From the NCBI RefSeq assembly GCF_014652535.1, contig NZ_BMYZ01000001.1, positions 434,001 through 498,000 on the forward strand: DNA of 64,000 bases, written 5' to 3'. Source of the stretch: Cellvibrio zantedeschiae (GTDB lineage Bacteria; Pseudomonadota; Gammaproteobacteria; Pseudomonadales; Cellvibrionaceae). Each line of letters starts with the position of its first letter. Position 1 is the first letter of the stretch. The notes beneath the pieces were generated by a model, which had not been told where the DNA came from, searched no databases, and saw only the letters and a list, made by a program, of their open reading frames with translations. Both the position numbers and the translations under genes were made by a program. This document shows positions 41,037 to 52,994 of this stretch, one piece after another.

Positions 41037-41360
41037 ATGTCATTTGTAGTTACTGAAAACTGCATCAAATGTAAACACACTACCTGTGTTGCCGTTTGCC
41101 CGACTGATGCATTCAGAGAAGGCCCCAATTTTTTGGTAATTGACCCTGTTTCCTGCATCGATTGCAATTTGTGCCCGGTTGAATGCCCTATAGGTGCAAT
41201 TTTTGAAGAAGATGATGTGCCGGAAGATCAGAAGCACTTTATTGCCTTGAACGCTGAGCTGGCGGCGGAGTGGCCGGAAATATCAATCGTTAAAGACGCG
41301 CTTCCTGATCATGAACAATGGAACAATGTTCCCAATAAGTTGGCATTACTGGAGCGTTAA
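41037..41360 (+). CDS. fdxA: 7Fe ferredoxin FdxA
   Basis: A 107-residue electron carrier. It holds one 3Fe-4S and one 4Fe-4S cluster, with cysteines in [20 protein letters not shown] and [20 protein letters not shown]. The C-terminal 50 residues form the FdxA extension ([20 protein letters not shown]). The N-terminus [11 protein letters not shown] is typical. A good GGAG precedes the ATG. It is monocistronic, and its upstream 220 nt is AT-rich with TATAAATATAAT-like promoter candidates around 40970. Confidence 0.95.
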
Positions 41361-41422
41361 CCAAAGTTCCACGATTTATCCCGCATTATCCCGATAGCCT
41401 ATTTTTACCATGCAGTGATTTA

Positions 41423-41460
41423 CATATACGAAATTTCATATATATTGATTTTCGTATATG
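41423..41460. promoter_or_regulatory. Putative ArsR operator upstream of arsR
   Basis: CATATACGAAA (41423-41433) and TTTCGTATATG (41450-41460) form a perfect 11-bp inverted repeat with a 16-nt AT-rich spacer. It ends 23 nt before the arsR start. ArsR/SmtB repressors bind such dyads over their own promoters, so it should autoregulate the ars operon. Confidence 0.7.
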
Positions 41461-41483
41461 TAAACCAATAGCTGGTAATCCCC

Positions 41484-41822
41484 ATGTTTACCCCCGATCT
41501 GATCTGTAAAACCCTTTCGGACTCCACGCGAGCCCGCATAGCCCTGTTGATAGCGCGCGAGCAAGAGCTATGCGTCTGCGAACTCACCTGCGCACTTGAT
41601 GACATCCAACCCAAAATTTCCCGCCACCTTGCGCTTTTGCGTGAAGCGGGGGTTTTGGCCGATCGTCGCCAGGGCCAATGGATTTATTACAGCTTGCATC
41701 CTGAGTTGCCTGAATGGGTAAGGGCGATGCTAAGTACCATGCTGGAAGCCAACAAAGATTGGCTAGCCGAAAACCACCAGCGCCTGTGCGAAATGCAAGA
41801 CCGTCCCAATCGCTGCTGTTAA
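41484..41822 (+). CDS. arsR: ArsR-family arsenic-responsive repressor
   Basis: A 112-residue winged-helix repressor that leaves DNA when arsenite binds. The DNA-recognition helix is in DDIQPKISRHLALLREAGVL, followed by the wing DRRQGQWIYYSL. The metalloid site is in ELCVCELTCAL: cysteines 30, 32 and 36. In E. coli ArsR the third Cys is three residues after the second; here it is four. It ends with a Cys pair. It is the first gene of an ars operon and is 17 nt before the arsJ-associated GAPDH gene. Confidence 0.93.
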   Translation: MFTPDLICKTLSDSTRARIALLIAREQELCVCELTCALDDIQPKISRHLALLREAGVLADRRQGQWIYYSLHPELPEWVRAMLSTMLEANKDWLAENHQRLCEMQDRPNRCC

Positions 41823-41839
41823 CGTTTAAGAGATAGAAA

Positions 41840-42844
41840 ATGAAAAAAATTAAAGTGGGCATTAATGGTTTTGGTCGTATTGGTCGCCTGGTTTTGCGTG
41901 CGTCTTATCTGTGGCCAGAATTTGAATTTGTACAAATTAATGACCCGGCCGGCGATGCCGCAACTTTTGCACATCTTCTAAAATTTGATTCCATTCAAGG
42001 CACCTTGCATGAAGCAGTAAGTGTCCACGACGATTTTTTGATGATCAAAAATCACAAAATAAAAATGACCGCTAATAAAACAATTGCCGAAACAAATTGG
42101 TCCGGGTGTGACCTTGTGCTTGAGTGCAGCGGTAAAATGAAAAGTGTTGCGGTCTTGCAAGAATACTTGAATCAAGGTGTGAAACGTGTGGTTGTGAGTG
42201 CTCCGGTAAAAGAAGCCGGCGCGTTAAATATTGTGATGGGGGTGAACCAGCATTTATTTAATTCTGCCGAGTATCGCATTGTTACTGCCGCATCTTGCAC
42301 GACTAATTGTTTGGCACCCATCGTAAAAGTTATTCATGGAAACTTAGGTATTCGCCATGGCTCTATTACGACCATTCATAATTTAACCAACACCCAAAGT
42401 ATTTTAGATCAAGCTCACAAAGACTTGCGCCGCGCTCGCTCATCTGGCTCTAATTTAATTCCTACTACAACGGGTTCAGCAACGGCAATCGCAGAAATTT
42501 TCCCTGAGTTGCGTGGCCGTTTAAGTGGCCATGCGGTTCGCGTTCCTTTGGCAAATGCGTCTCTTACGGATTGTGTATTTGAAGTGGAGCGAGAAACCAG
42601 TGCGAAGGAAGTTAATGCCTTATTAAAAGCAGCAAGTGAAAACGAACTAAAAAATATTTTGGGATATGAAGAATTGCCGCTGGTATCCAATGATTACTGC
42701 GGTGATCCACGCTCATCTATAGTAGATGCGCTCTCTACCATGGTGATTAATAAAACCCAGGTGAAAATATATGCCTGGTACGATAATGAATGGGGTTATG
42801 CAAACCGTACTGCCGAGTTGGCTAAGCTTGTCGGATCGGTTTAA
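41840..42844 (+). CDS. gapdh: ArsJ-associated glyceraldehyde-3-phosphate dehydrogenase
   Basis: A 334-residue GAPDH. In arsJ operons this enzyme uses arsenate in place of phosphate to form 1-arseno-3-phosphoglycerate, which ArsJ exports. The NAD motif [17 protein letters not shown] opens the protein. The active-site loop [18 protein letters not shown] holds the catalytic Cys, with His near [17 protein letters not shown]. The C-terminal [18 protein letters not shown] is typical. The gene lies between arsR and arsJ, and its stop overlaps the arsJ start by one base (TAATG). Context, not the fold, indicates the arsenic role rather than glycolysis. Confidence 0.94.
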
Positions 42845-44058
42845 TGAATTCCACCATTCGCCAATACGCGCTGGTGACCGGTAATTACTGGGCATTTACG
42901 CTCACCGATGGCGCCTTGCGCATGTTGGTAGTTTTGCACTTCCATCAACTTGGATATAGCCCGCTACAAATTGCTTCCTTATTTTTGTTTTATGAAATTT
43001 TTGGCGTAATCACCAATTTGTTTGGTGGCTATTTAGGGGCGCGTATTGGTTTAAACCGCACTATGAATATTGGGCTCGGGTTACAAATTGCGGCCTTATT
43101 AATCTTGGTAGTCCCTGTGCAATGGTTAAGCGTACCTTTGGTGATGGCCGCACAAGCGCTGTCGGGCATCGCAAAAGATCTCAATAAAATGAGCGCGAAA
43201 AGCTCCATTAAAAGTTTGGTTTCAGCAAATCAGCAAAAACAATTGTTTAGGTGGGTGGCATTACTCACAGGCTCTAAAAATGCCCTTAAAGGCGTCGGTT
43301 TTTTTCTCGGCGGTGCACTGCTTGCACTCGTTGGTTTTAAAGGATCTATCTTGGCTATGGCTGCAATGCTCGGTGCTATTTGGTTGGCAAGCTTAATTTT
43401 ATTGCAGCAGGATTTAGGCAAAGCTAAAAACAAACCAAAATTCTCAGAAGTTTTTTCTAAAAGCCGTGCAATTAATATTTTATCGGCTGCGCGTCTATTT
43501 TTATTTGGCGCGCGCGATATTTGGTTTGTAGTAGCGCTGCCGGTGTTTTTAAGTAGTCAACTTGGTTGGAGTTTTTTGAAAGTCGGCGGATTTTTAGCGC
43601 TCTGGGTTATTGGTTATGGAGTGGTGCAGTCGGTGGCGCCATACATGACAGGAAAATCCACTGAAAAAGTACCCGATGGACGCAGCGCACTTTGGTGGGC
43701 ATTAGTTCTGGCTTTTATCACCGCAGCTATAGCGCTTGCAATGACAAATTTTTCGAATGCTCCTGTGTTGATTTCTGGTTTGTGTGTATTTGGTGTTTTG
43801 TTTGCAATTAACTCATCGCTACACAGTTATTTAATTGTGAGCTATGCCAGAGAGGATGGCGCTTCAACAGATGTTGGTTTTTATTATATGGCCAATGCAT
43901 TGGGGCGTTTGGTAGGCACTTTGCTTTCAGGGTGGATTTACCAGGCATCGGGATTGATCGCTTGCTTATGGGTAGCGGCCATTTTTATTGCACTGGCCGC
44001 ACTCTTATCCCTAGGCTTACCACGTAGCATACAGGTTAATACTGATGAACCGCGATAA
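42844..44058 (+). CDS. arsJ: Organoarsenical efflux MFS transporter ArsJ
   Basis: A 404-residue inner-membrane permease with about twelve hydrophobic segments. ArsJ exports 1-arseno-3-phosphoglycerate, which breaks down outside to arsenate. The N-terminal stretch RQYALVTGNYWAFTLTDGAL and LRMLVVLHFHQLGYSPLQIA are characteristic of ArsJ, as is LFGGYLGARIGLNRTMNIGL. Its start overlaps the GAPDH stop and its end overlaps the ATP-grasp gene by 14 nt, so all three are coupled. It differs from generic MFS drug pumps in the operon and in the N-terminal signature. Confidence 0.94.
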   Translation: MNSTIRQYALVTGNYWAFTLTDGALRMLVVLHFHQLGYSPLQIASLFLFYEIFGVITNLFGGYLGARIGLNRTMNIGLGLQIAALLILVVPVQWLSVPLVMAAQALSGIAKDLNKMSAKSSIKSLVSANQQKQLFRWVALLTGSKNALKGVGFFLGGALLALVGFKGSILAMAAMLGAIWLASLILLQQDLGKAKNKPKFSEVFSKSRAINILSAARLFLFGARDIWFVVALPVFLSSQLGWSFLKVGGFLALWVIGYGVVQSVAPYMTGKSTEKVPDGRSALWWALVLAFITAAIALAMTNFSNAPVLISGLCVFGVLFAINSSLHSYLIVSYAREDGASTDVGFYYMANALGRLVGTLLSGWIYQASGLIACLWVAAIFIALAALLSLGLPRSIQVNTDEPR

Positions 44059-45325
44059 TGTTTCCGGCTGCAATGCTGATTGCACTGGTCCAGCAAAGAT
44101 ATTAAATCACGATTGCTTTTGCACGACCCTCAATCGTGAGCAGTTGGATCAAATTCTGCGTGCAGACGATAACAATCAGGATGTGCTGGCATCTCACCCA
44201 CAACTTTTTTCCAACACCACCGTATTTATTTCGCCAGCGCAACTGCAACAGATGCGCGCTATTGTGCAAGCTGTTGAGCGTGTTGTTAGTTTGCCAGCCT
44301 ATGCAGAAGAAGTCTTGGCGCGAGCCCCCTTAATTGCAAGCTTTAATCCCGGCACGCTCGGCGTATTTATGGGTTACGATTTTCATTTAAGTGCGCAAGG
44401 TCCGCAAATTATTGAAATCAACACCAATGCTGGTGGTGCCTTTTTAAATGCTGCATTGGTAAGTGCGCAAACCGAATGTTGCAAGGCTGCCGGTACACCA
44501 TTGCCTTTTCAGAAAATAAAGCTGGATCAAAAATTTATCAGCATGTTTTTGAATGAATGGAAACTGCAACGCGGCGACAAACAGCTTACGCGAATCGCTA
44601 TTGTTGACGAAAATCCCACGCAACAATTTCTCTATCCCGAATTTAAAATGGCGCAGCGTTTATTTGAGCGTAATGGTATTGCGGCCATTATTGTTGATCC
44701 TGGTGAATTGCAATTCAATGATGGGAAATTGATGCATCAAGGACTCACAATTGATTTGGTTTACAATCGCTTAACGGATTTTTCGTTGGTCGGTGAAGCT
44801 CTTTCTGTATTGCGCCAAGCCTATGAGGCGGGTTCTATTGTAGTTACGCCAAACCCCTATCAATATGCTCTATATGCGGATAAGCGCAATCTGATTGCTT
44901 TAGGTGATGCGGAACATTTGGAGAAATTAGGTGCAGACGAAAAGGATATTCAAGTCTTGAGTACTGCGGTTCCAAAGACCCAAGCGGTTACCGCAGATAA
45001 TGCAGAGAATTTATGGTCAACACGCAAGCAGCTATTTTTTAAACCAGCTTCAGGATACGGCAGCCGCGCCGCTTATCGCGGTGACAAACTCACAAAACGT
45101 GTGTGGGAAGAAATTTTGCAAAGTGATTATGTTGCGCAACAAATTGTGTTGCCTGGCGAGCGCGGAATTTTGGTAGACGATGAACCAACAGCGTTAAAAA
45201 TGGATATTCGCGCTTACGTTTATAAGGGTGAAATTCAATTGGTGGCGGCGCGTTTATATCAAGGCCAAACCACAAATTTCAGAACGCAGGGTGGTGGTTT
45301 TGCGCCTGTATTTGTGGCGCAGTGA
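44045..45325 (+). CDS. ATP-grasp ligase-like protein of the arsJ operon, function unknown
   Basis: A 426-residue soluble protein that I do not recognise as a named enzyme. The N-terminus has five Cys in the first 30 residues (SGCNADC and DCFC). A metal-ligand-type motif GPQIIEINTNAGGAF lies near residues 118-132. The ATP-loop-like LFFKPASGYGSRAAYRGDKL comes later, near 330-350. The end has MDIRAYVYKGEIQLVAARLY, then TNFRTQGGGFAPVF. In ordinary ATP-grasp enzymes the E-x-N metal site follows the phosphate loop; the reversed order resembles circularly permuted ATP-grasp ligases such as glutathionylspermidine synthase. It overlaps arsJ by 14 nt, so it belongs to the ars operon and may ligate an amino acid or thiol to a substrate. 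The function is inference. Confidence 0.78.
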   Translation: MNRDNVSGCNADCTGPAKILNHDCFCTTLNREQLDQILRADDNNQDVLASHPQLFSNTTVFISPAQLQQMRAIVQAVERVVSLPAYAEEVLARAPLIASFNPGTLGVFMGYDFHLSAQGPQIIEINTNAGGAFLNAALVSAQTECCKAAGTPLPFQKIKLDQKFISMFLNEWKLQRGDKQLTRIAIVDENPTQQFLYPEFKMAQRLFERNGIAAIIVDPGELQFNDGKLMHQGLTIDLVYNRLTDFSLVGEALSVLRQAYEAGSIVVTPNPYQYALYADKRNLIALGDAEHLEKLGADEKDIQVLSTAVPKTQAVTADNAENLWSTRKQLFFKPASGYGSRAAYRGDKLTKRVWEEILQSDYVAQQIVLPGERGILVDDEPTALKMDIRAYVYKGEIQLVAARLYQGQTTNFRTQGGGFAPVFVAQ

Positions 45326-45328
45326 TTT

Positions 45329-45655
45329 TTATACACTTTTCCATCCTGCGACAATAATCCCCATGCCTACCAATGCTACGCCTGCGCCCACCCAATCATA
45401 AGTAGATAATTTTACGCCATCTACAAATCGCAACCACATTAAGGCTGTTACAACATAAGCGCCGCCATAGGCCGCGTAAACTCGCCCGCTCGCTGCGGGG
45501 TGCAATGTCAGTAGCCAAACAAACAACGCCAGGCTTGCCGCAGAAGGCAACAATAACCATATTGAGCCGCCTTTGCGTAACCAAAGATAGGGCAAGAAGC
45601 AGCCAACAATTTCTGCCAAAGCTGTTACTACAAAAAGAAAGATTATTTTTATCAT
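45329..45655 (-). CDS. ynfA: YnfA/UPF0060 family small membrane protein
   Basis: A 108-residue protein with four hydrophobic segments, matching Ynf[21 protein letters not shown], the central [18 protein letters not shown] (a family signature) and [10 protein letters not shown] at the end. YnfA proteins resemble SMR drug transporters and have been tied to toxic-compound efflux. The gene sits five nt downstream of the MerR-type regulator on the minus strand, so the two are probably one unit and a metal or cation role is plausible. It is convergent with the ars operon, ending four nt from its last stop. Confidence 0.92.
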
Positions 45656-45660
45656 AGGAT

Positions 45661-46074
45661 TTACTGTGGTTCAGTAGTTGAGAGTGCATCGACAATGGTG
45701 CAATCCGGCGCTTTAGCTCCCGGACAGCAAGACTTGCAACTTTTAGCCATCTCCAGGAGTGAAGCTTTAATTCGCTCCAGTTCGGCCAACTTTTCATTCA
45801 CTGCAGTCAAATTATTTTGCACCAGAGCCAAGGCTTCGCTGCAGGAGCGCTCGTTATTTTCCGAAAGGCTTAGCAATTCACGCGTTTTCTCCAGTGTGAA
45901 ACCAAGCCCGCGCGCTTTCAAAATAAATTCCAGGCGTTTTTGATGATTGCGATTGTACAAACGATGCCCGCCATCAGTTCGAAGAGGCGCGTGTAATAGT
46001 TGTAGTTTTTCATAATAGCGGATGGTTTCTATAGGGCATCCGGTTGAGCGCGACAATTCACCAATTCCAAGCAT
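45661..46074 (-). CDS. MerR-family metal-responsive regulator (ZntR/MerR/CadR-type)
   Basis: A 137-residue activator from the ATG at 46072-46074 ([20 protein letters not shown]). The winged-helix region [10 protein letters not shown] and [17 protein letters not shown] is standard. Metal-site candidates are Cys78 (RSCSEALAL), Cys113, Cys116, Cys117 and Cys125 in the tail ([13 protein letters not shown]). This spacing fits the Hg/Zn/Cd/Pb branch, but the cognate metal cannot be fixed from the pattern. A MerR-type promoter with 19-bp spacer lies just upstream and faces the divergent MerF-like gene. Downstream is ynfA after five nt. Confidence 0.9.
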
Positions 46075-46095
46075 AATCAAAATCCGTAAAAGAGC

Positions 46096-46126
46096 TTGCA
46101 TCTGTAGTTACTACAGATTTTATCCT
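46096..46126 (+). promoter_or_regulatory. MerR-type promoter/operator
   Basis: TTGCAT (46096-46101) and TATCCT (46121-46126) are separated by 19 nt, the overlong spacer that MerR regulators untwist. The 19-nt palindrome ATCTGTAGTTACTACAGAT (46100-46118) sits across it. It points at the MerF-like gene starting at 46167. Confidence 0.82.
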
Positions 46127-46166
46127 GAAGCTTCTTGTAGTGGTAAATAACTTTTAGGAGATTGTT

Positions 46167-46442
46167 ATGAAATTGAGTCCGTCGAAATGGTTTGCAGGCA
46201 TGGTAGCCTTGGCCTGCGTAGGCTGTTGCGCCATTCCATTGTATGCGCTTGTTACAGGTGTATTCGGTATTGGTTTACTGGGGGTAGGAATGACACAAAA
46301 TATCCTGGAGCTTATTGTGTGTGTTCTTCCATTGTTTGGTCTTGTTATTGGCTATTTTGTGTATAAATCCAAATCTGTTAATAAAACGTGTTGCAACTCT
46401 CCAGATGAAAAGTGCTCAGATACCCAGTGTGCGAACAAATAG
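46167..46442 (+). CDS. MerF-like small cysteine membrane protein
   Basis: A 91-residue protein with two hydrophobic segments. The first has the vicinal pair Cys20-Cys21 followed by Pro24 (VGCCAIPLYALVTG), and the tail has Cys75-Cys76, Cys83 and Cys88 (KTCCNSPDEKCSDTQCANK). Mercury importer MerF has the same plan: a CC pair in the first membrane helix and another CC pair in the cytosolic tail. A good GGAG ribosome-binding site precedes the ATG. It is driven by a MerR-type promoter. No merA reductase, merP or merT is nearby, so import would not end in reduction here. Transport of another thiophilic metal is possible. Confidence 0.75.
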   Translation: MKLSPSKWFAGMVALACVGCCAIPLYALVTGVFGIGLLGVGMTQNILELIVCVLPLFGLVIGYFVYKSKSVNKTCCNSPDEKCSDTQCANK

Positions 46443-46619
46443 GAAGTTGAACTTTACATTGAGCCAATTTTAAAAGTGTTTTACAAAAATTGCGGGTTAT
46501 CGCGATTGAGATAGCCATGGAAGGCTGAATCCAAAAAAGTGTTGTGTGGCTAGCGGGTTTAGGGTGCAAGTATTATCAAAACTCTTTCTAGCAAATATCC
46601 CTTAAGTAACACGCAATTT

Positions 46620-47123
46620 TTAATTCCAGTCTCTCGCCATATAACGCCCTTTTCCGCCGCCGAGCACATGTAAAGCTTGGCTCAGGTTGCGGTCTTTAGC
46701 TTCTTGTGATTTCAAACCAGCAAAATAACGAAGTATTTCTTTTTGCCTGCTGGGAGGCAGGGCATCCCAACCTTCTTGTGCACGAGGATTTTCTTTTAAC
46801 GCCTTATGCAAATAACTTGGCATAGGATGGGTAGGGCCACCCTTGTAATCCTTATCAAATTCTATTTCTACTCTGACACTATCGCCTACTTTTGTATCTG
46901 ATGCTTTGCGAACTTCGCCGTGTAAATAGAGATAAAAGCTTCCATCGCCGATTGGCATCATATTAATTCGCCAAGGCGTTTTAGGTTTTCCATTAATACG
47001 AACGCACACCGGCATGGGCTTGCGCCAGCTTTCTTTTAAAAAGCTGGCTTGTTCAGCGCTCACCAATATATAAGGATTGATCTTGTTTATTTCGATCACG
47101 GATGTGAAGCACAAAATACTCAT
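46620..47123 (-). CDS. DUF1905/YdeI-OmdA family protein
   Basis: A 167-residue soluble protein. The N-terminal DUF1905 barrel shows KPMPVCVRINGKPKTPWRIN, then MMPIGDGSFYLYLHGEVRK and KVGDSVRVEIEFDKDYKGGP. The C-terminal YdeI/OmdA part has LPPSRQKEILRYFAGLKSQE and ends RYMARDWN. YdeI relatives have been linked to bacteriocin or peptide tolerance, but the biochemistry is unclear. It lies 34 nt after the czcA stop on the same strand and could be read through from that operon, though its own start has a GGAGAG site. Confidence 0.85.
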   Translation of the reverse strand: MSILCFTSVIEINKINPYILVSAEQASFLKESWRKPMPVCVRINGKPKTPWRINMMPIGDGSFYLYLHGEVRKASDTKVGDSVRVEIEFDKDYKGGPTHPMPSYLHKALKENPRAQEGWDALPPSRQKEILRYFAGLKSQEAKDRNLSQALHVLGGGKGRYMARDWN

Positions 47124-47157
47124 TCTCTCTCCTATATCTTAATGCGCAACTTATTTA

Positions 47158-50100
47158 TCAGCGTTTGCCATGCACAATTCGATAAAGCGCAGGCAACATC
47201 ACCAGCGTTAACAAAGTGGAAGAAATAATTCCACCTATGACAACCGTTGCTAAAGGCCTTTGTACCTCAGCACCAATTCCCGTATTTAATGCCATGGGTA
47301 CAAATCCTAAACTTGCTACCAATGCCGTCATTAACACGGGGCGTAATCGAGTTACGGCGCCTTCAATAATCGCTGGAATTAACTGTCCATTTTCCAAATA
47401 CGAATTGCGGATAAATGAAAGCATGACTAATCCGTTTAGTACAGCGATACCTGAAAGTGCGATAAATCCGATGCCAGCGGAAATGGAGAGCGGCATATCG
47501 CGCAACCAGAGTGCCAAGACACCACCGGTGAGTGCAAGGGGGACGCCGGTGAAAATAATTAGTGCATCCTTCACTGAACCGAACGCCATGATTAATAATG
47601 CAATCACCATAATAAGTGTGATGGGCACAATCAAGCTTAAGCGTTTGCTGGCCGATTCAAGTTGCTGAAAAGTACCACCATAATTTAGCCAGTAGCCGGG
47701 GGGCAATTTGATTTCGCTAGCAATTTTATTTTGCACTTCTTTTACAAAACTTCCTAAATCACGGTCGCGTACGTTGGCAGTCACTATTACCAAACGTTTT
47801 CCATTCTCACGGCTGATTTGATTTGGCGCAGTGGTAAAAGTTAATTGCGCAACTTGCGACAAAGGTACAAAGCCGGGTGCTTTACTAATTGGAATTAAAA
47901 GACCTTCAAGAGTGCCTGGATTTACCCGTAAGTTTTCTGGTAAACGGACAACCAGTTCAAAACGTCGGTCACCTTCAAAAACTAAACCTGCAGATTCACC
48001 GGCTAGCGCAGTGGATATGACATCTTGCACCTCAGCAATCGTTAAGCCATAACTTGCCAATTCCGTGCGTTTGGGAATGACTGTCAACATGGGCAGGCCA
48101 GTAACTTGCTCCACGCGGACATCAGCAGCACCAGGAATAGTTTCTAAAAGTTCGCTAATTTCACTGGCGGATTTGAACATTTGGTCGAGATTGTCGCCTA
48201 CAACTTTAATCCCCAAGTCTGAACGCACGCCGGAAATAAGTTCGTTAAAACGCATTTCAATCGGTTGTGTAAACTCATAATTGTTGCCAGGAATTGTCTT
48301 TACGGCAGCTTCCAGGTCTTCAAGAAAATCGGCTTTGCTGCGGCTTGGGTCAGGCCATTGATCGCGCGGCTTCATGATAACAAAGTTGTCGGCCACGCTT
48401 GGCGGCATGGGGTCAGTAGCGACCTCCGCCGTGCCGAGCTTAGCAAATACTTTATCGACTTCTGGAAATTGTTTGATGCGTGCCTCCAGAATTTTTTGCA
48501 TACCCACAGCTTGTTCTAAACTGGTGCCAGGAATTCGCAAGGCGTGTAACGCAATATCGCCTTCATCTAATTTTGGAATAAATTCTGAACCTAATGTTGT
48601 TGCTAACCACGAGCTTGCAATAACCAAAAAAGCAGCACTAGACACCAACCACCAGCGAAGTTTGAGTGCACCCTCTAATAGTGGACGATAAGCATTTTTT
48701 GCGGCAAGCATAATTGCATTTTCATGCTCGGCAACTTTTCCATTCATAACCAATGCAATAGCTGCCGGGATAAAAGTAACAGATAAAATTAATGCGGCCA
48801 CTAACGCAACAACAACCGTAACTGCCATGGGGTGAAACATTTTTCCTTCTACACCCGTAAGCGTAAAAATGGGCAAGTAAACAAGTGTGATAATCCCAAC
48901 CCCAAATAAGCTGGGGCGAATTACTTCGTTGGTAGCACTGTACGCCAGTTCCAAACGTTCTTTTAGTGGCAACTGCCCACCGTGAAAACGCTGCGCTTCT
49001 GCTAAACGTCGAATAGTATTTTCTACAATAATCACCGCGCCATCGACAATTAAACCAAAATCCAGCGCGCCCAAACTCATTAAATTTGCCGACACTCCCA
49101 GTTGCAGCATGCCGCTCATTGTCATGAGCATGGTGATAGGAATTATTGCGGCAGTAATTAATGCCGCGCGCAAATTACCGAGTAGAGCGAATAGCACTAC
49201 TATGACTAGCAGTGCACCTTCCAGCAGATTTTTTTGAACGGTGGCGATAGTTTTGTCCACCAAGGTAGTACGGTTATACACCGCGGCAGCAACGACTCCT
49301 TCTGGCAGCGATTGGTTTACTTTTTCCAGCGCGATTGCCAGGTCGCGCGAAACAATGCGCGAATTTTGGCCCATCAACATCATAGCCGTACCGAGCACAG
49401 TTTCCTGTCCGTTTTGTGTGGCTGCGCCTGTACGAAGTTCTTTGCCAATCGCAACTTGCGCAACATCCTTTATGCGAATGAAAACGCCTTTGTAACTGCC
49501 AATAACAAGTTGTTCAATATCGCTAATGCTTTCGAGTTGCCCTGCAGTGCGAATAAGCCATTGTTGACCGCGAGATTCTATATAACCTGCGCCGCGATTT
49601 TGATTATTACCTTCAAGTGCGCTACGAATTTTCTCCATGCTCAATTCATAGGCTAAGAGTTTCGTTGGGTCGGGCGTAACATGGTACTGCTTGCTGTAAC
49701 CGCCAATGCTATTAATTTCGGTGACGCCTTTTACCAACACAAGTTGCGGCCGAATGATCCAATCCTGAATTTCGCGCAGCGCAGTTGCGTCATAGGCGCT
49801 ACCGTCCGCTTGTTTTGCATCTGGTTTGGCGGTGACCGTGTACATAAAAATCTCACCAAGCCCGGTTGCAATTGGCCCCATGGTGGGTTCAATCCCTGAA
49901 GGTAATTTGCTTTTAATGGTAGCTATACGTTCGTTAATTAAGTTGCGCGCAAAATAAATATCTGTGCCATCGTCAAATACTAAAGTTACTTGCGATAAGC
50001 CGTAGCGCGACAGAGAACGTGTGTAGGATAAATGCGGAAGGCCTGAGAGTGCAGTTTCCACTGGCCAGGTAATACGCTGTTCAATTTCCAGTGGCGAATA

Positions 50101-50265
50101 ACCCGGCGCTTCGGTGTTGATTTGCACCTGTACATTGGTGATGTCGGGCACTGCATCAATGGGTAATTGGCGGTAACTCCAGCAACCCAAAATTATAAAG
50201 CCGAAAACAATACCTAAAATTAATCGGCGCCGGGCGATGGAAAATCGCAATAAAAACTCAATCAT
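47158..50265 (-). CDS. czcA: Heavy-metal efflux RND pump CzcA-type
   Basis: The inner-membrane RND pump of a tripartite system exporting divalent metals. The 1035 residues have twelve membrane helices and two large periplasmic loops. The proton-relay motif DFGLIVDGAVIIVENTIRR in helix 4 matches the HME1 (Co/Zn/Cd) group; Cu/Ag pumps have a different helix-4 motif. The opening RFSIARRRLILGIVFGFIIL and APGYSPLEIEQRITWPVE are typical. It follows czcB after 52 nt that contain a duplicated 20-bp unit carrying ribosome-binding site and ATG. It forms the operon small His-rich protein-czcC-czcB-czcA. Confidence 0.95.
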   Translation of the reverse strand: MIEFLLRFSIARRRLILGIVFGFIILGCWSYRQLPIDAVPDITNVQVQINTEAPGYSPLEIEQRITWPVETALSGLPHLSYTRSLSRYGLSQVTLVFDDGTDIYFARNLINERIATIKSKLPSGIEPTMGPIATGLGEIFMYTVTAKPDAKQADGSAYDATALREIQDWIIRPQLVLVKGVTEINSIGGYSKQYHVTPDPTKLLAYELSMEKIRSALEGNNQNRGAGYIESRGQQWLIRTAGQLESISDIEQLVIGSYKGVFIRIKDVAQVAIGKELRTGAATQNGQETVLGTAMMLMGQNSRIVSRDLAIALEKVNQSLPEGVVAAAVYNRTTLVDKTIATVQKNLLEGALLVIVVLFALLGNLRAALITAAIIPITMLMTMSGMLQLGVSANLMSLGALDFGLIVDGAVIIVENTIRRLAEAQRFHGGQLPLKERLELAYSATNEVIRPSLFGVGIITLVYLPIFTLTGVEGKMFHPMAVTVVVALVAALILSVTFIPAAIALVMNGKVAEHENAIMLAAKNAYRPLLEGALKLRWWLVSSAAFLVIASSWLATTLGSEFIPKLDEGDIALHALRIPGTSLEQAVGMQKILEARIKQFPEVDKVFAKLGTAEVATDPMPPSVADNFVIMKPRDQWPDPSRSKADFLEDLEAAVKTIPGNNYEFTQPIEMRFNELISGVRSDLGIKVVGDNLDQMFKSASEISELLETIPGAADVRVEQVTGLPMLTVIPKRTELASYGLTIAEVQDVISTALAGESAGLVFEGDRRFELVVRLPENLRVNPGTLEGLLIPISKAPGFVPLSQVAQLTFTTAPNQISRENGKRLVIVTANVRDRDLGSFVKEVQNKIASEIKLPPGYWLNYGGTFQQLESASKRLSLIVPITLIMVIALLIMAFGSVKDALIIFTGVPLALTGGVLALWLRDMPLSISAGIGFIALSGIAVLNGLVMLSFIRNSYLENGQLIPAIIEGAVTRLRPVLMTALVASLGFVPMALNTGIGAEVQRPLATVVIGGIISSTLLTLVMLPALYRIVHGKR

Positions 50266-50300
50266 GATGCTCTCCGAAAAACCATGATGCTCTCCAAAAA
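50261..50300. repeat. Tandem 20-bp duplication at the czcA start
   Basis: 50261-50280 and 50281-50300 are direct repeats with two mismatches. On the minus strand each carries GGAGAGCATCATG, the czcA ribosome-binding site and start. The outer copy opens a seven-codon frame MVFRRAS whose stop TGA overlaps the czcA ATG. Confidence 0.85.
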
Positions 50301-50318
50301 ATCATAAAGGGCTCCTGA

Positions 50319-51626
50319 TTAATGATCATGCGAAGCGCCAGACTTTTCCAAGTCGGCCTTGAGCAAATAACTATTGTCAACCACGTAGTGATCGCCAGGA
50401 TTTAAACCGTTAATAACCTCGGTAAATTCTCCATCGGTTTGGCCCAATTCAAGCGGACGAATTTCGTAAGTGTCACCCACTTGAACAAACACAACTTGCC
50501 AGTCGCGAAAGTTTTGCAATGCACGATTATCTATTCTCAGTGCAACAGGAATTTCGGCGAGCGTGATGGTTCCCTCCAAACTTTGGTTAGGCACCCAATC
50601 GTTTTCATGATTAGGTAAAGGTATATGGGCGATAAGTGTGGAGGCGCCGTCTTCATGCGAAGTAAGCGATTCTATATTGCTAAGCGCGCTGCGACCTTCA
50701 CCTTCTAGTAAAACACTTTGACCGGCTTTAAGTTTATTGGTTTGCGCCGGAAACGCGTGTAGGTGCGCTTCCAATTGCGAATAGTCCACCAAGGTAAATA
50801 AAATTTTTTCACCGGTGAATTCATCGGGGTTAGCGTGGCGTTCAATAATGGTTCCGCTAATCGGCGCGGTAATGTTGTATTGGCGTAAGCTCTCGTTAGA
50901 CTCCACGCTGGCGAGCACATCGCCTACCTTTACCTTATCGCCAATCGTAGCTTTCACTGCGCGTATAACGCCGGGATAGCGCGCTTGTATGTGGCTCACC
51001 CGCACAGGATCGGGCAAGGCTTGTCCGTAAAGTTTAATAGTTTGTTTCAAATTTCCTGCTGTAGCAATTGCAGTGGTAACGCCAGATTCTTTTGCGAGTG
51101 CTGCGCTTAATTGAACGCGACCTTCGTAAGAAGAAAATTTCCATTGGTGCTTTTTGTTTTTGTAAGTTGCAGTAACTGAAACGTCAAACGAGTGAGGCTC
51201 TTGAACCTCGCCTTGTCCGCGTAAAAAATCATCTTGTGGTAAAAAAGTCAATTTGTTGGATTTGGCTGCTGTGGGTGTAGCACTCAGGCGACTTAGCTCC
51301 ACACTCAATTGCCAATCTTTAGGCGCTATAGCATCGCCATCATCAGTCGCCCACGCACGATATTCGGGTGGCACACCGCGTTCAAAAATAGCGAGCTCTA
51401 CCGAAAAATCACCATCGCTTAACAGACGACCCTTGTGCGGACCTTTTACAATGTCGGTCTGCCCGCCACTTTCATGCTCGGCACTTCCATGTCCTTCACT
51501 CCCATGCCCTGCATGATCATTGTGTTTTTCGGAGCAGGCGGAAATACTTGCGAAAATTATCAATGCGAAAATTTTGCTGCTAATGCGATATTTTGATGTG
51601 AATATTTTTTCAAATAATAATTTCAT
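50319..51626 (-). CDS. czcB: CzcB-type membrane fusion protein
   Basis: The periplasmic adaptor joining the RND pump to the outer-membrane channel. The 435 residues start with a lipoprotein-like signal (FASISACSEKH). A His/Glu-rich metal-binding head follows (HNDHAGHGSEGHGSAEHESG). The barrel-sandwich (lipoyl) part shows YPGVIRAVKATIGDKVKVGD, then ITAPISGTIIERHANPDEF, with short or no coiled coil, as in Czc/Cus adaptors. The His-rich stretch suggests metal capture before handover. It overlaps czcC by four nt (ATGA). Confidence 0.93.
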   Translation of the reverse strand: MKLLFEKIFTSKYRISSKIFALIIFASISACSEKHNDHAGHGSEGHGSAEHESGGQTDIVKGPHKGRLLSDGDFSVELAIFERGVPPEYRAWATDDGDAIAPKDWQLSVELSRLSATPTAAKSNKLTFLPQDDFLRGQGEVQEPHSFDVSVTATYKNKKHQWKFSSYEGRVQLSAALAKESGVTTAIATAGNLKQTIKLYGQALPDPVRVSHIQARYPGVIRAVKATIGDKVKVGDVLASVESNESLRQYNITAPISGTIIERHANPDEFTGEKILFTLVDYSQLEAHLHAFPAQTNKLKAGQSVLLEGEGRSALSNIESLTSHEDGASTLIAHIPLPNHENDWVPNQSLEGTITLAEIPVALRIDNRALQNFRDWQVVFVQVGDTYEIRPLELGQTDGEFTEVINGLNPGDHYVVDNSYLLKADLEKSGASHDH

Positions 51627-52921
51627 GGCTGCGTCCTCGCGTCCAAATTCGATGAAGGCGTAGCATTGAGTGCTGTGCCAGTAATGCGTTCTATTTCGCT
51701 TGCCAGTAAATGAGCACGAGCGGCGGCATTAATTAATTCCAATTGCATTTCCAGCAATTCGCGCTGGGCAAGATTGAGTTCTAAATAGCTATAACGGCCC
51801 TGGTTAAATCCATTTTGCGTTGTGCGCATGGCTTGCGATAGGAGAGGGATAGCATCCGCGCGCAGGCTATTCACTTCTGCCAATGCTTGCTCGTAAGCGC
51901 CGTGTAAATGAATTAAATGCGCTTGCAATTTCGTACGGGTTGCATCGTGCTCGAGTTCGGCACCGGCTTGATTTGCGCGCGCGGTTGTAAGCGCTCCTGT
52001 TGCCCGGCTTGCTGAGCCTAAGGGCATGCTCATGCCTACTACCAAGGCAGAATCATCACTTATTTGTAAACGGCGAACGCCCGCGTTCCAGGTTAGATTG
52101 GCTGAGCGTTCCGTTTGTGCTTGTCGCAGTTCTGCAGTGCGTAATTGGATTTGATCGCTTAATACTGCAAGGTCAGGATTGCTTTCTAATTTGGCAAGTA
52201 AGGTATCGAGGGGTGCTGATTGTGGCAGCAAAAATAAATTAGCTTCCACTTCTGTAAATTTAGGTTGAGCAAAAGTGATTTGCGGTTTCATCCAAAAAGC
52301 GCTGAGTTTTACGCGTTCACTATCCATTTGTTGACGCTTTTTTTCTAGCTCAATTGTGGCGCGTACCACGGAGGCTTTTGCGCGTAACACGTCTGCTTCA
52401 GGCGTGCGCCCAGCGTCCCATTGTTTGCTGAGTGATTTTGTATTTTCTTGTGCAGCGTTAAGTCTTTGCTGCAAAAGTTTTAGCTCTTCTTGTGTCGCGG
52501 CGAGTGTAATAAATTGTTGGGTGGCTTGCGTAAGCACATCCAACGTCAAAACCCGTTGGGTAGATGCAAGCTGCTGTTGCCTTGCAGTGACAACACCAAG
52601 GCGTGCGTCACTTTTTCCACCCAGTTCAATAATAGATGACAGTGACAAAGTGAGTTCGGCTGCATCTGCAGCTTTGAAACTGCCGCTGCCTGCGATATTT
52701 TCAAATTGAGCAGATAGATGCAGGCCAGGTTTTAAGGCTGCTGTTTGTTGTTCACCTCGTAAGGCTTTTAATTGAAACTCATACCCGGCAAGTTGCGGAT
52801 TGTTTTGTAAAGTCGATTGAATAACCTGCTGTAATCGCAAGGAGTTTTGCGCATAGACAGGTGTAGCTAAAATAAAAAACGTAATGGCGCCTAGCGCTAT
52901 TAGCGGAGGAAAAGTTCTCAT
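51623..52921 (-). CDS. czcC: CzcC-type outer-membrane channel (TolC family)
   Basis: An outer-membrane efflux protein with two OEP repeats. The start at 52919-52921 has GGAG seven nt upstream and gives a signal peptide MRTFPPLIALGAITFFILA ending near VYA; an in-frame ATG seven codons earlier is less likely. The 432 residues show LQQVIQSTLQNNPQLAGYEF and SSIIELGGKSDARL (a czcC-like phrase), then the second repeat LDTLLAKLESNPDLAVLSDQ and YSYLELNLAQRELLEMQLEL. The stop overlaps the czcB start by four nt. Confidence 0.92.
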   Translation of the reverse strand: MRTFPPLIALGAITFFILATPVYAQNSLRLQQVIQSTLQNNPQLAGYEFQLKALRGEQQTAALKPGLHLSAQFENIAGSGSFKAADAAELTLSLSSIIELGGKSDARLGVVTARQQQLASTQRVLTLDVLTQATQQFITLAATQEELKLLQQRLNAAQENTKSLSKQWDAGRTPEADVLRAKASVVRATIELEKKRQQMDSERVKLSAFWMKPQITFAQPKFTEVEANLFLLPQSAPLDTLLAKLESNPDLAVLSDQIQLRTAELRQAQTERSANLTWNAGVRRLQISDDSALVVGMSMPLGSASRATGALTTARANQAGAELEHDATRTKLQAHLIHLHGAYEQALAEVNSLRADAIPLLSQAMRTTQNGFNQGRYSYLELNLAQRELLEMQLELINAAARAHLLASEIERITGTALNATPSSNLDARTQP

Positions 52922-52994
52922 GAAATGCTCCAGCAAAATCACCCGTTGATACGGATAATTTCAGGTTCAAATTAAAATTCGAAAAATTTGAATA

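Follow-up and report, generated by a model that had tools for sequence, protein, structure and literature searches.

We analysed a 64,000-nucleotide (nt) stretch of the Cellvibrio zantedeschiae contig NZ_BMYZ01000001.1 (positions 434,001 to 498,000; hereafter, the window), in which an arsR-gapdh-arsJ operon is followed by a fourth gene, here named ATPg, that is predicted to encode a circularly permuted ATP-grasp ligase. In the 21 genomes surveyed from the genus, ATPg acts like an accessory gene to arsJ. The recurrent arsenic and copper resistance contexts of its relatives suggest that some bacteria meet these metals with a ligation step that has gone unrecognised. We tentatively propose, with a probability of roughly 45%, that ATPg uses ATP to join a carboxylate to an amine, as a peptide or thiol ligase, and so produces a ligand for soft metals. 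The fold and the enzyme class are known, and the novelty lies in the unnamed family and its metal-resistance context. Full-text literature searches, which mostly leave out subscription journals, returned no paper with a title on this family or on its link to arsJ, arsenic, or copper.

Linkage to arsJ within the genus

ArsJ and the ArsJ-associated GAPDH are adjacent in the window and each scored above its curated cut-off, which identifies an ArsJ arsenate-efflux operon. Two pairs of consecutive genes overlap, gapdh and arsJ by 1 nt and arsJ and ATPg by 14 nt (44045-44058). The original prediction had described this fourth gene and its overlap, and its coordinates, strand, and frame proved correct.

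ATPg is not a chance open reading frame (ORF): copies 66-81% identical and of full or nearly full length are found in the five closest same-genus genomes, each after arsJ. In the whole genus, arsJ is present in 20 of the 21 genomes (25 copies above the cut-off) and ATPg in 15, with 16 copies complete and one reduced to a remnant. All 16 full copies are on the same strand and 28 to 583 nt downstream of the arsJ match, and the remnant also adjoins an arsJ copy. Eight of the 25 arsJ copies have no neighbouring ATPg and one has the remnant only; thus, ATPg is not obligate in the ArsJ operon.

In G012 C9 (L112, L020), an ATPg remnant interrupted by stop codons lies after a second arsJ copy, which suggests decay of ATPg next to a duplicate arsJ. 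Besides, five same-genus loci (L101, L102, L104, L105, and L106) hold an ion-channel-like gene of about 151-157 amino acids (aa) between arsJ and ATPg. Its proteins scored above the PF07885 cut-off in 5/5 loci (for example, L105:7434-7889), and it is possibly a further accessory of the arsJ operon.

Fold, family placement, and conserved residues

At the structural level, the predicted model of ATPg displays a permuted ATP-grasp fold across the whole chain. This supports the circular permutation that the original prediction had read from the motifs EINTNAGG and KPASGYGSRA, both present in the claimed order. The ExN metal motif is N-terminal to the ATP-loop lysine, and E124, N126, K280, and K333 are invariant in 127/127 aligned sequences, as are D112, H114, N128, R242, K385, D387, R389, and R403. 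For ATPg, as a circularly permuted ATP-grasp ligase, the model predicts the fold shared by eukaryotic glutathione synthetase and, among bacterial enzymes, YgiC/glutathionylspermidine synthetase. The best structural Z-scores were those of YgiC/YjfC/GspS (7uka, 7uk6, and 2ioa), at 27.5, 26.7, and 24.5.

For family placement, no Pfam or NCBIfam model claimed the window ATPg, and neither PF14403 (CP_ATPgrasp_2) nor PF03738 (GSP_synth) matched it at E <= 1; PF03738 had no matches in the source genome either. PF14403 was matched by 6/23 members of the ATPg family (best E 8.4e-7). With hhalign, the family aligned to one of the source genome's PF14403 proteins with E 1.3e-5 and 81% probability, and the family profile against a single YgiC sequence was not significant (E 0.38). 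By sequence, the family seems to lean toward PF14403 more than toward YgiC. The source genome has two PF14403 proteins above the cut-off (570 and 494 bits) and encodes a regular gshB (427 bits). Among PDB sequences, phmmer with ATPg retrieved none at E <= 10 and the best profile match had E 0.73 (3n6x); eukaryotic-type glutathione synthetase appeared neither in these PDB searches at E <= 10 nor among the Pfam matches.

ATPg has G-Y-D-F-H where YgiC and Gss have R-x-D, and it keeps the D...ExN motif. Both PF14403 proteins of the source genome likewise carry G-x-D. Residues 1-30 contain four cysteines (9, 13, 24, and 26), not the five counted before. Two of these are conserved, C24 in 123/125 rows and C26 in 125/125 (2 gaps in the alignment of 127 sequences), together with a previously unnoticed pair, C145 in 124/126 rows and C146 in 123/126 (1 gap). 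The conserved C24, C26, C145, and C146 may together form a metal site.

Arsenic contexts outside the genus

A scan of species genomes gave at least 581 relatives, of which the best 80 were retained, 77 of them non-genus; several contigs were short, so neighbours can be missed. Among these 77 loci, arsJ was found in the fetched flanks of 5, some arsenic marker (ACR3, ArsC, ArsR, or ArsJ) in 17, and at least one non-RND marker in 34. The contrast of 17/77 with 0/40 control regions for arsenic is weak, the controls not being matched to these wider loci.

In L178, the order is arsR-ATPg-arsC-acr3-pstS-pstC, with 20- and 24-nt gaps flanking ATPg and the other five genes above curated cut-offs. ATPg overlaps acr3 by 4 nt in the acr3-ATPg pair of Chitinibacter (L170), where arsJ lies about 4.3 kb off on the opposite strand, and Acidovorax (L175) presents the order gapdh-arsJ-arsR-ATPg-(arsC-like)-acr3. 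Three Pseudomonas loci (L147, L156, and L163) have a convergent arsJ whose end meets the end of ATPg. In L136 and L138, ATPg is followed by an arsC-like gene and then by pst genes; the arsC-like label is loose for L136, L138, L170, and L175, with scores below the arsC cut-off. Profile support was obtained for genes of L175, L178, L147, and L170. Neighbour genes were called with a greedy ORF picker (70-80 aa minimum), which missed ATPg in 10/80 loci and over-extended others.

Copper, mercury, and plasmid contexts

Copper markers (P-type ATPase, multicopper oxidase, or CopB) were found in 11/20 same-order loci vs. 0/40 control regions (p 5e-7), and arsenic markers in 0/20 of the same loci. Any marker at all was present in 4/40 controls, none of them copper. 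The controls were hand-chosen, round-number 16-kb stretches from 18 of the 20 test genomes plus G235, and the test regions averaged 14.9 kb; one control (L255) starts 0.6 kb from an arsJ gene, and two test loci (L084 and L085) have identical ATPg sequences.

ATPg is also found on plasmids, with 34 matching records; in 3 of these the match is weak or partial. Its annotation there is 'hypothetical protein' or 'conserved hypothetical protein', and in two places it is unannotated. We inspected 14 of the 34 records: BLAST found copper markers in 10 and merA in 2, every one of the 14 carried some marker when RND pumps are counted, and none had arsenic markers.

Separate recruitment on the tree

The tree, built with a quick method, had 127 rows: 126 of 131 loci plus the window, with 5 rows identical to others dropped. 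Context labels were taken from the marker scan, and L116 was placed without one. The arsJ label changes 5 times on the tree (starred branches force 4 or more of these), other arsenic contexts 9 times (6 or more forced), and copper 14 times (9 or more forced). With the labels shuffled 500 times, so few changes were reached in 0, 1, and 0 draws for arsJ, other arsenic, and copper, respectively; near-copies inflate this clustering, and several long rows are uncertain (L096, L095, L094, L090, L165, L209, and L181). By parsimony, the near-arsJ placements in Cellvibrio, Pseudomonas, Acidovorax, and Chitinibacter are four events, with gains not separable from losses. This distribution needs ATPg to have been recruited to metal-resistance contexts several separate times.

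Operon layout and other neighbours

The inverted repeat before arsR (Table 1) is likely the ArsR operator/promoter of the operon, and ATPg is probably co-transcribed with arsR-gapdh-arsJ as one ArsR-controlled transcript. Promoter-like sites were not enriched in 41300-45700 (2 vs. 8.5 expected in shuffles), so the one within the repeat is no evidence by itself.

Table 1. Features of the operon, in window positions
Feature	Position	Strand	Description
arsR	41484-41822	+	ArsR/SmtB-family repressor; NF007528 106.8 bits, cut-off 97
gapdh	41840-42844	+	ArsJ-associated glyceraldehyde-3-phosphate dehydrogenase; NF033735 546.5 bits, cut-off 450
arsJ	42844-44058	+	MFS efflux permease; NF033734 619.9 bits, cut-off 400
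ATPg (fourth gene)	44045-45325	+	426 aa; predicted circularly permuted ATP-grasp ligase, glutathione-synthetase/YgiC fold
Inverted repeat, 37-nt arms, 78% complementary	41405-41478		Upstream of arsR; spans promoter-like site 41419-41446
Codons of CxC (C24, C26) within LNxxCxC	44114-44122	+	Conserved among aligned relatives
Codons of EINTNAGG, residues 124-131	44414-44437	+	Metal-binding motif; N-terminal owing to permutation
Codons of Cys pair C145-C146	44477-44482	+	Conserved among aligned relatives
Codons of KPASGYGSRA, residues 333-342	45041-45070	+	ATP-binding lysine and glycine-rich loop

Downstream of the operon, a metal-handling neighbourhood extends over 45329-52942. It includes a YnfA family protein, a MerR-family regulator, a small membrane protein (46167-46442) with a MerC match below threshold, and a CusA/CzcA-family RND permease (47158-50265; TIGR00914, 1524 bits). 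Also encoded there are an adaptor-like protein that scored under the cut-offs of its models and, at 51623-52942, an outer-membrane efflux protein.

Other genes recur beside ATPg in the wider set of loci. A MobB-type gene comes after it in L127, L139, L146, L160, L162, and L185 (one profile-tested), in some loci with MoeA-, MoaD-, and MoaE-like genes behind, as judged by their translations, and a YoaA-type helicase comes before it in L124, L125, L135, L146, L153, L155, and L160 (one profile-tested). An N-acetylglutaminylglutamine amidotransferase (TIGR03104) directly follows ATPg in 8 of the 77 loci (L132, L134, L142, L145, L148, L152, L164, and L196), with 979-1006 bits and all eight above the cut-off. 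On the Polaromonas plasmid pPNAP02 (L203), too, ATPg is immediately followed by a gene annotated as this amidotransferase; in the stretch of pPNAP02 shown, for which the gene table is incomplete, N-acetylglutaminylglutamine synthetase was not annotated.

Proposed function and its alternatives

Thiol affinity is common to As(III), Cu(I), and Hg(II). Because the metals share it and because ATPg is predicted to have the fold of enzymes acting in glutathione synthesis or modification, its simplest product would be a thiol peptide or a conjugate of glutathione. ATP-grasp enzymes phosphorylate a carboxylate and then condense it with an amine (PMC12568646). Upon ArsR release, the arsR-gapdh-arsJ-ATPg transcript would be made, and ATPg would most likely activate a small acid (glutathione, a gamma-glutamyl-cysteine-like peptide, or another) as an acyl phosphate and couple it to an amino acid or amine, giving a small ligand. 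The ligand would aid tolerance of the thiol-seeking As(III), Cu(I), and Hg(II), and in the ArsJ operon ATPg would back up arsenate export by dealing with arsenite formed inside the cell. The TIGR03104 amidotransferase after ATPg is consistent with a product that is a peptide and has its acid amidated in a further step. Moreover, arsJ operons take on helpers, since that of Vibrio cholerae has a putative phosphatase, proposed to clear 1-arseno-3-phosphoglycerate (PMC9601151).

Several observations weigh against this proposal. Arsenate itself is not thiol-seeking, the substrate is one that we infer, and sequence identity to structurally solved relatives is 10-15%. The RxD arginine of YgiC/Gss is a glycine in ATPg, so its acyl substrate may differ from theirs. 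We also considered an order sample of 293 genomes, the window's genome included, in which strong ATPg matches (E below 1e-50) were present in 26 genomes (28 with any match) and arsJ above the cut-off in 125. The two genes were not enriched together: arsJ was found in 13/26 ATPg genomes vs. 112/267 others (p 0.28). The closest non-genus ATPg of this sample (G039, 67% identical) is in a genome 99% complete and without an arsJ match; it falls within the genus clade on the tree, where its missing arsJ is one of the 5 arsJ changes. No non-RND marker was near ATPg in 43 of the 77 non-genus loci, nor any marker in 9/20 same-order loci, and several Zoogloeaceae/Rhodocyclaceae-type genomes have ATPg beside YoaA helicase or molybdopterin genes.

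Thus, the arsJ co-occurrence that the original prediction set as a check held inside the genus and not across the order. Similarly, its idea of a new ligation step keeps the link to arsenic handling, backed by relatives in arsC/acr3 operons, and loses the restriction to the ArsJ route or to an arsenical, which the order sample, G039, and the copper/mercury islands leave unsupported. ATPg is unlikely to catalyse a reaction that only the ArsJ route uses, because it is not generally linked to arsJ and its relatives sit in other arsenic operons, in copper/mercury islands, or without markers.

For the four co-conserved cysteines, a more specific role can be imagined, although we consider it unlikely: an As(III), Cu(I), or Hg(II) site in a metal-gated ligase, or in a ligase acting on a metal-bound thiol, that would make an undescribed low-molecular-weight metal ligand common to arsenic, copper, and mercury resistance.

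We regard as rather unlikely that ATPg is a polyamine-conjugating ligase of the YgiC kind, which would place spermidine or another polyamine onto a peptide for general stress or membrane adaptation, with an indirect metal link. YgiC and YjfC rank top by Z-score (27.5 and 26.7), YgiC is annotated as a peptide--spermidine ligase, and both are termed peptidylpolyamine synthetases in PMC12568646. However, the source genome has no GSP_synth match, the alignment of the family profile to YgiC was not significant, the RxD arginine is replaced by glycine, and the surroundings of E. coli K-12 ygiC lack the recurrent arsenic and copper context of ATPg.

The substrate of the ligase could also be a ribosomal peptide or protein, such as the end of a metal-binding peptide, rather than a free small molecule. 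ATP-grasp ligases can act on peptides, and the conserved cysteines could recognise a Cys-rich partner. This is improbable in our view; neighbour clustering gave no recurrent small partner, a weak argument with ORFs below 80 aa uncalled and no dedicated search made.

We find it quite improbable that ATPg is a passenger, that is, a general stress gene travelling with mobile metal-resistance islands and having no metal-handling role. Its presence on plasmids and in varied contexts, and the 43/77 loci without a non-RND marker, would suit a passenger, but its repeated separate placement inside ars operons, with 20-24-nt gaps or short overlaps, its position beside arsJ in 15/21 genus genomes, and the copper markers in 11/20 loci vs. 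0/40 controls would not. Finally, ATPg might attach an amino acid or a thiol to an arsenical that the GAPDH makes and ArsJ exports, be it 1-arseno-3-phosphoglycerate or a different one. This reading fits the translational overlap, the strict linkage in the genus, and the gapdh-arsJ-arsR-ATPg order of Acidovorax, but is very doubtful, as intact ATPg is missing at 9/25 genus arsJ copies, 72 of the 77 non-genus loci have no arsJ in the fetched flanks, the copper islands with their many relatives are left unexplained, and 1-arseno-3-phosphoglycerate is unstable (PMC7826186).

The soft-metal ligand remains our preferred product. A family with 'hypothetical protein' annotations on plasmids has become linked to arsenic and copper resistance genes on several separate occasions. 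Should the product of ATPg be a thiol or peptide ligand, a dedicated biosynthetic step would join pumps, reductases, and oxidases in bacterial metal resistance, and the ArsJ pathway would acquire one more member in a single genus. A clean testing ground is available in the ArsJ operon because the same genus holds arsJ loci with and without ATPg.

Comparison with known systems

Among enzymes of this fold, the YgiC/YjfC peptide-spermidine ligases and GspS resemble ATPg in having the highest Z-scores and the D...ExN motif; they differ in carrying RxD instead of GxD-F-H, in the non-significant sequence match of YgiC, and in gene context. CP_ATPgrasp_2 proteins (PF14403, e.g., 3n6x) have a weak sequence relation to the ATPg family, and the two in the source genome share its GxD. 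The eukaryotic-type glutathione/homoglutathione synthetases (2hgs, 1m0w, and 3kal) are 12-13% identical to ATPg, which is bacterial and in a genome with its own GshB. Cp1B, the E-64 pathway ligase (9cjn), belongs to a fungal natural-product pathway, unlike ATPg.

At the operon level, the closest parallel is the V. cholerae var operon, arsR-varG-varH-arsJ, which likewise has four genes, arsJ and one for an additional enzyme among them. According to PMC9601151, that extra gene encodes a putative phosphatase and lies between gapdh and arsJ, whereas the extra gene in Cellvibrio is the ligase-like ATPg.
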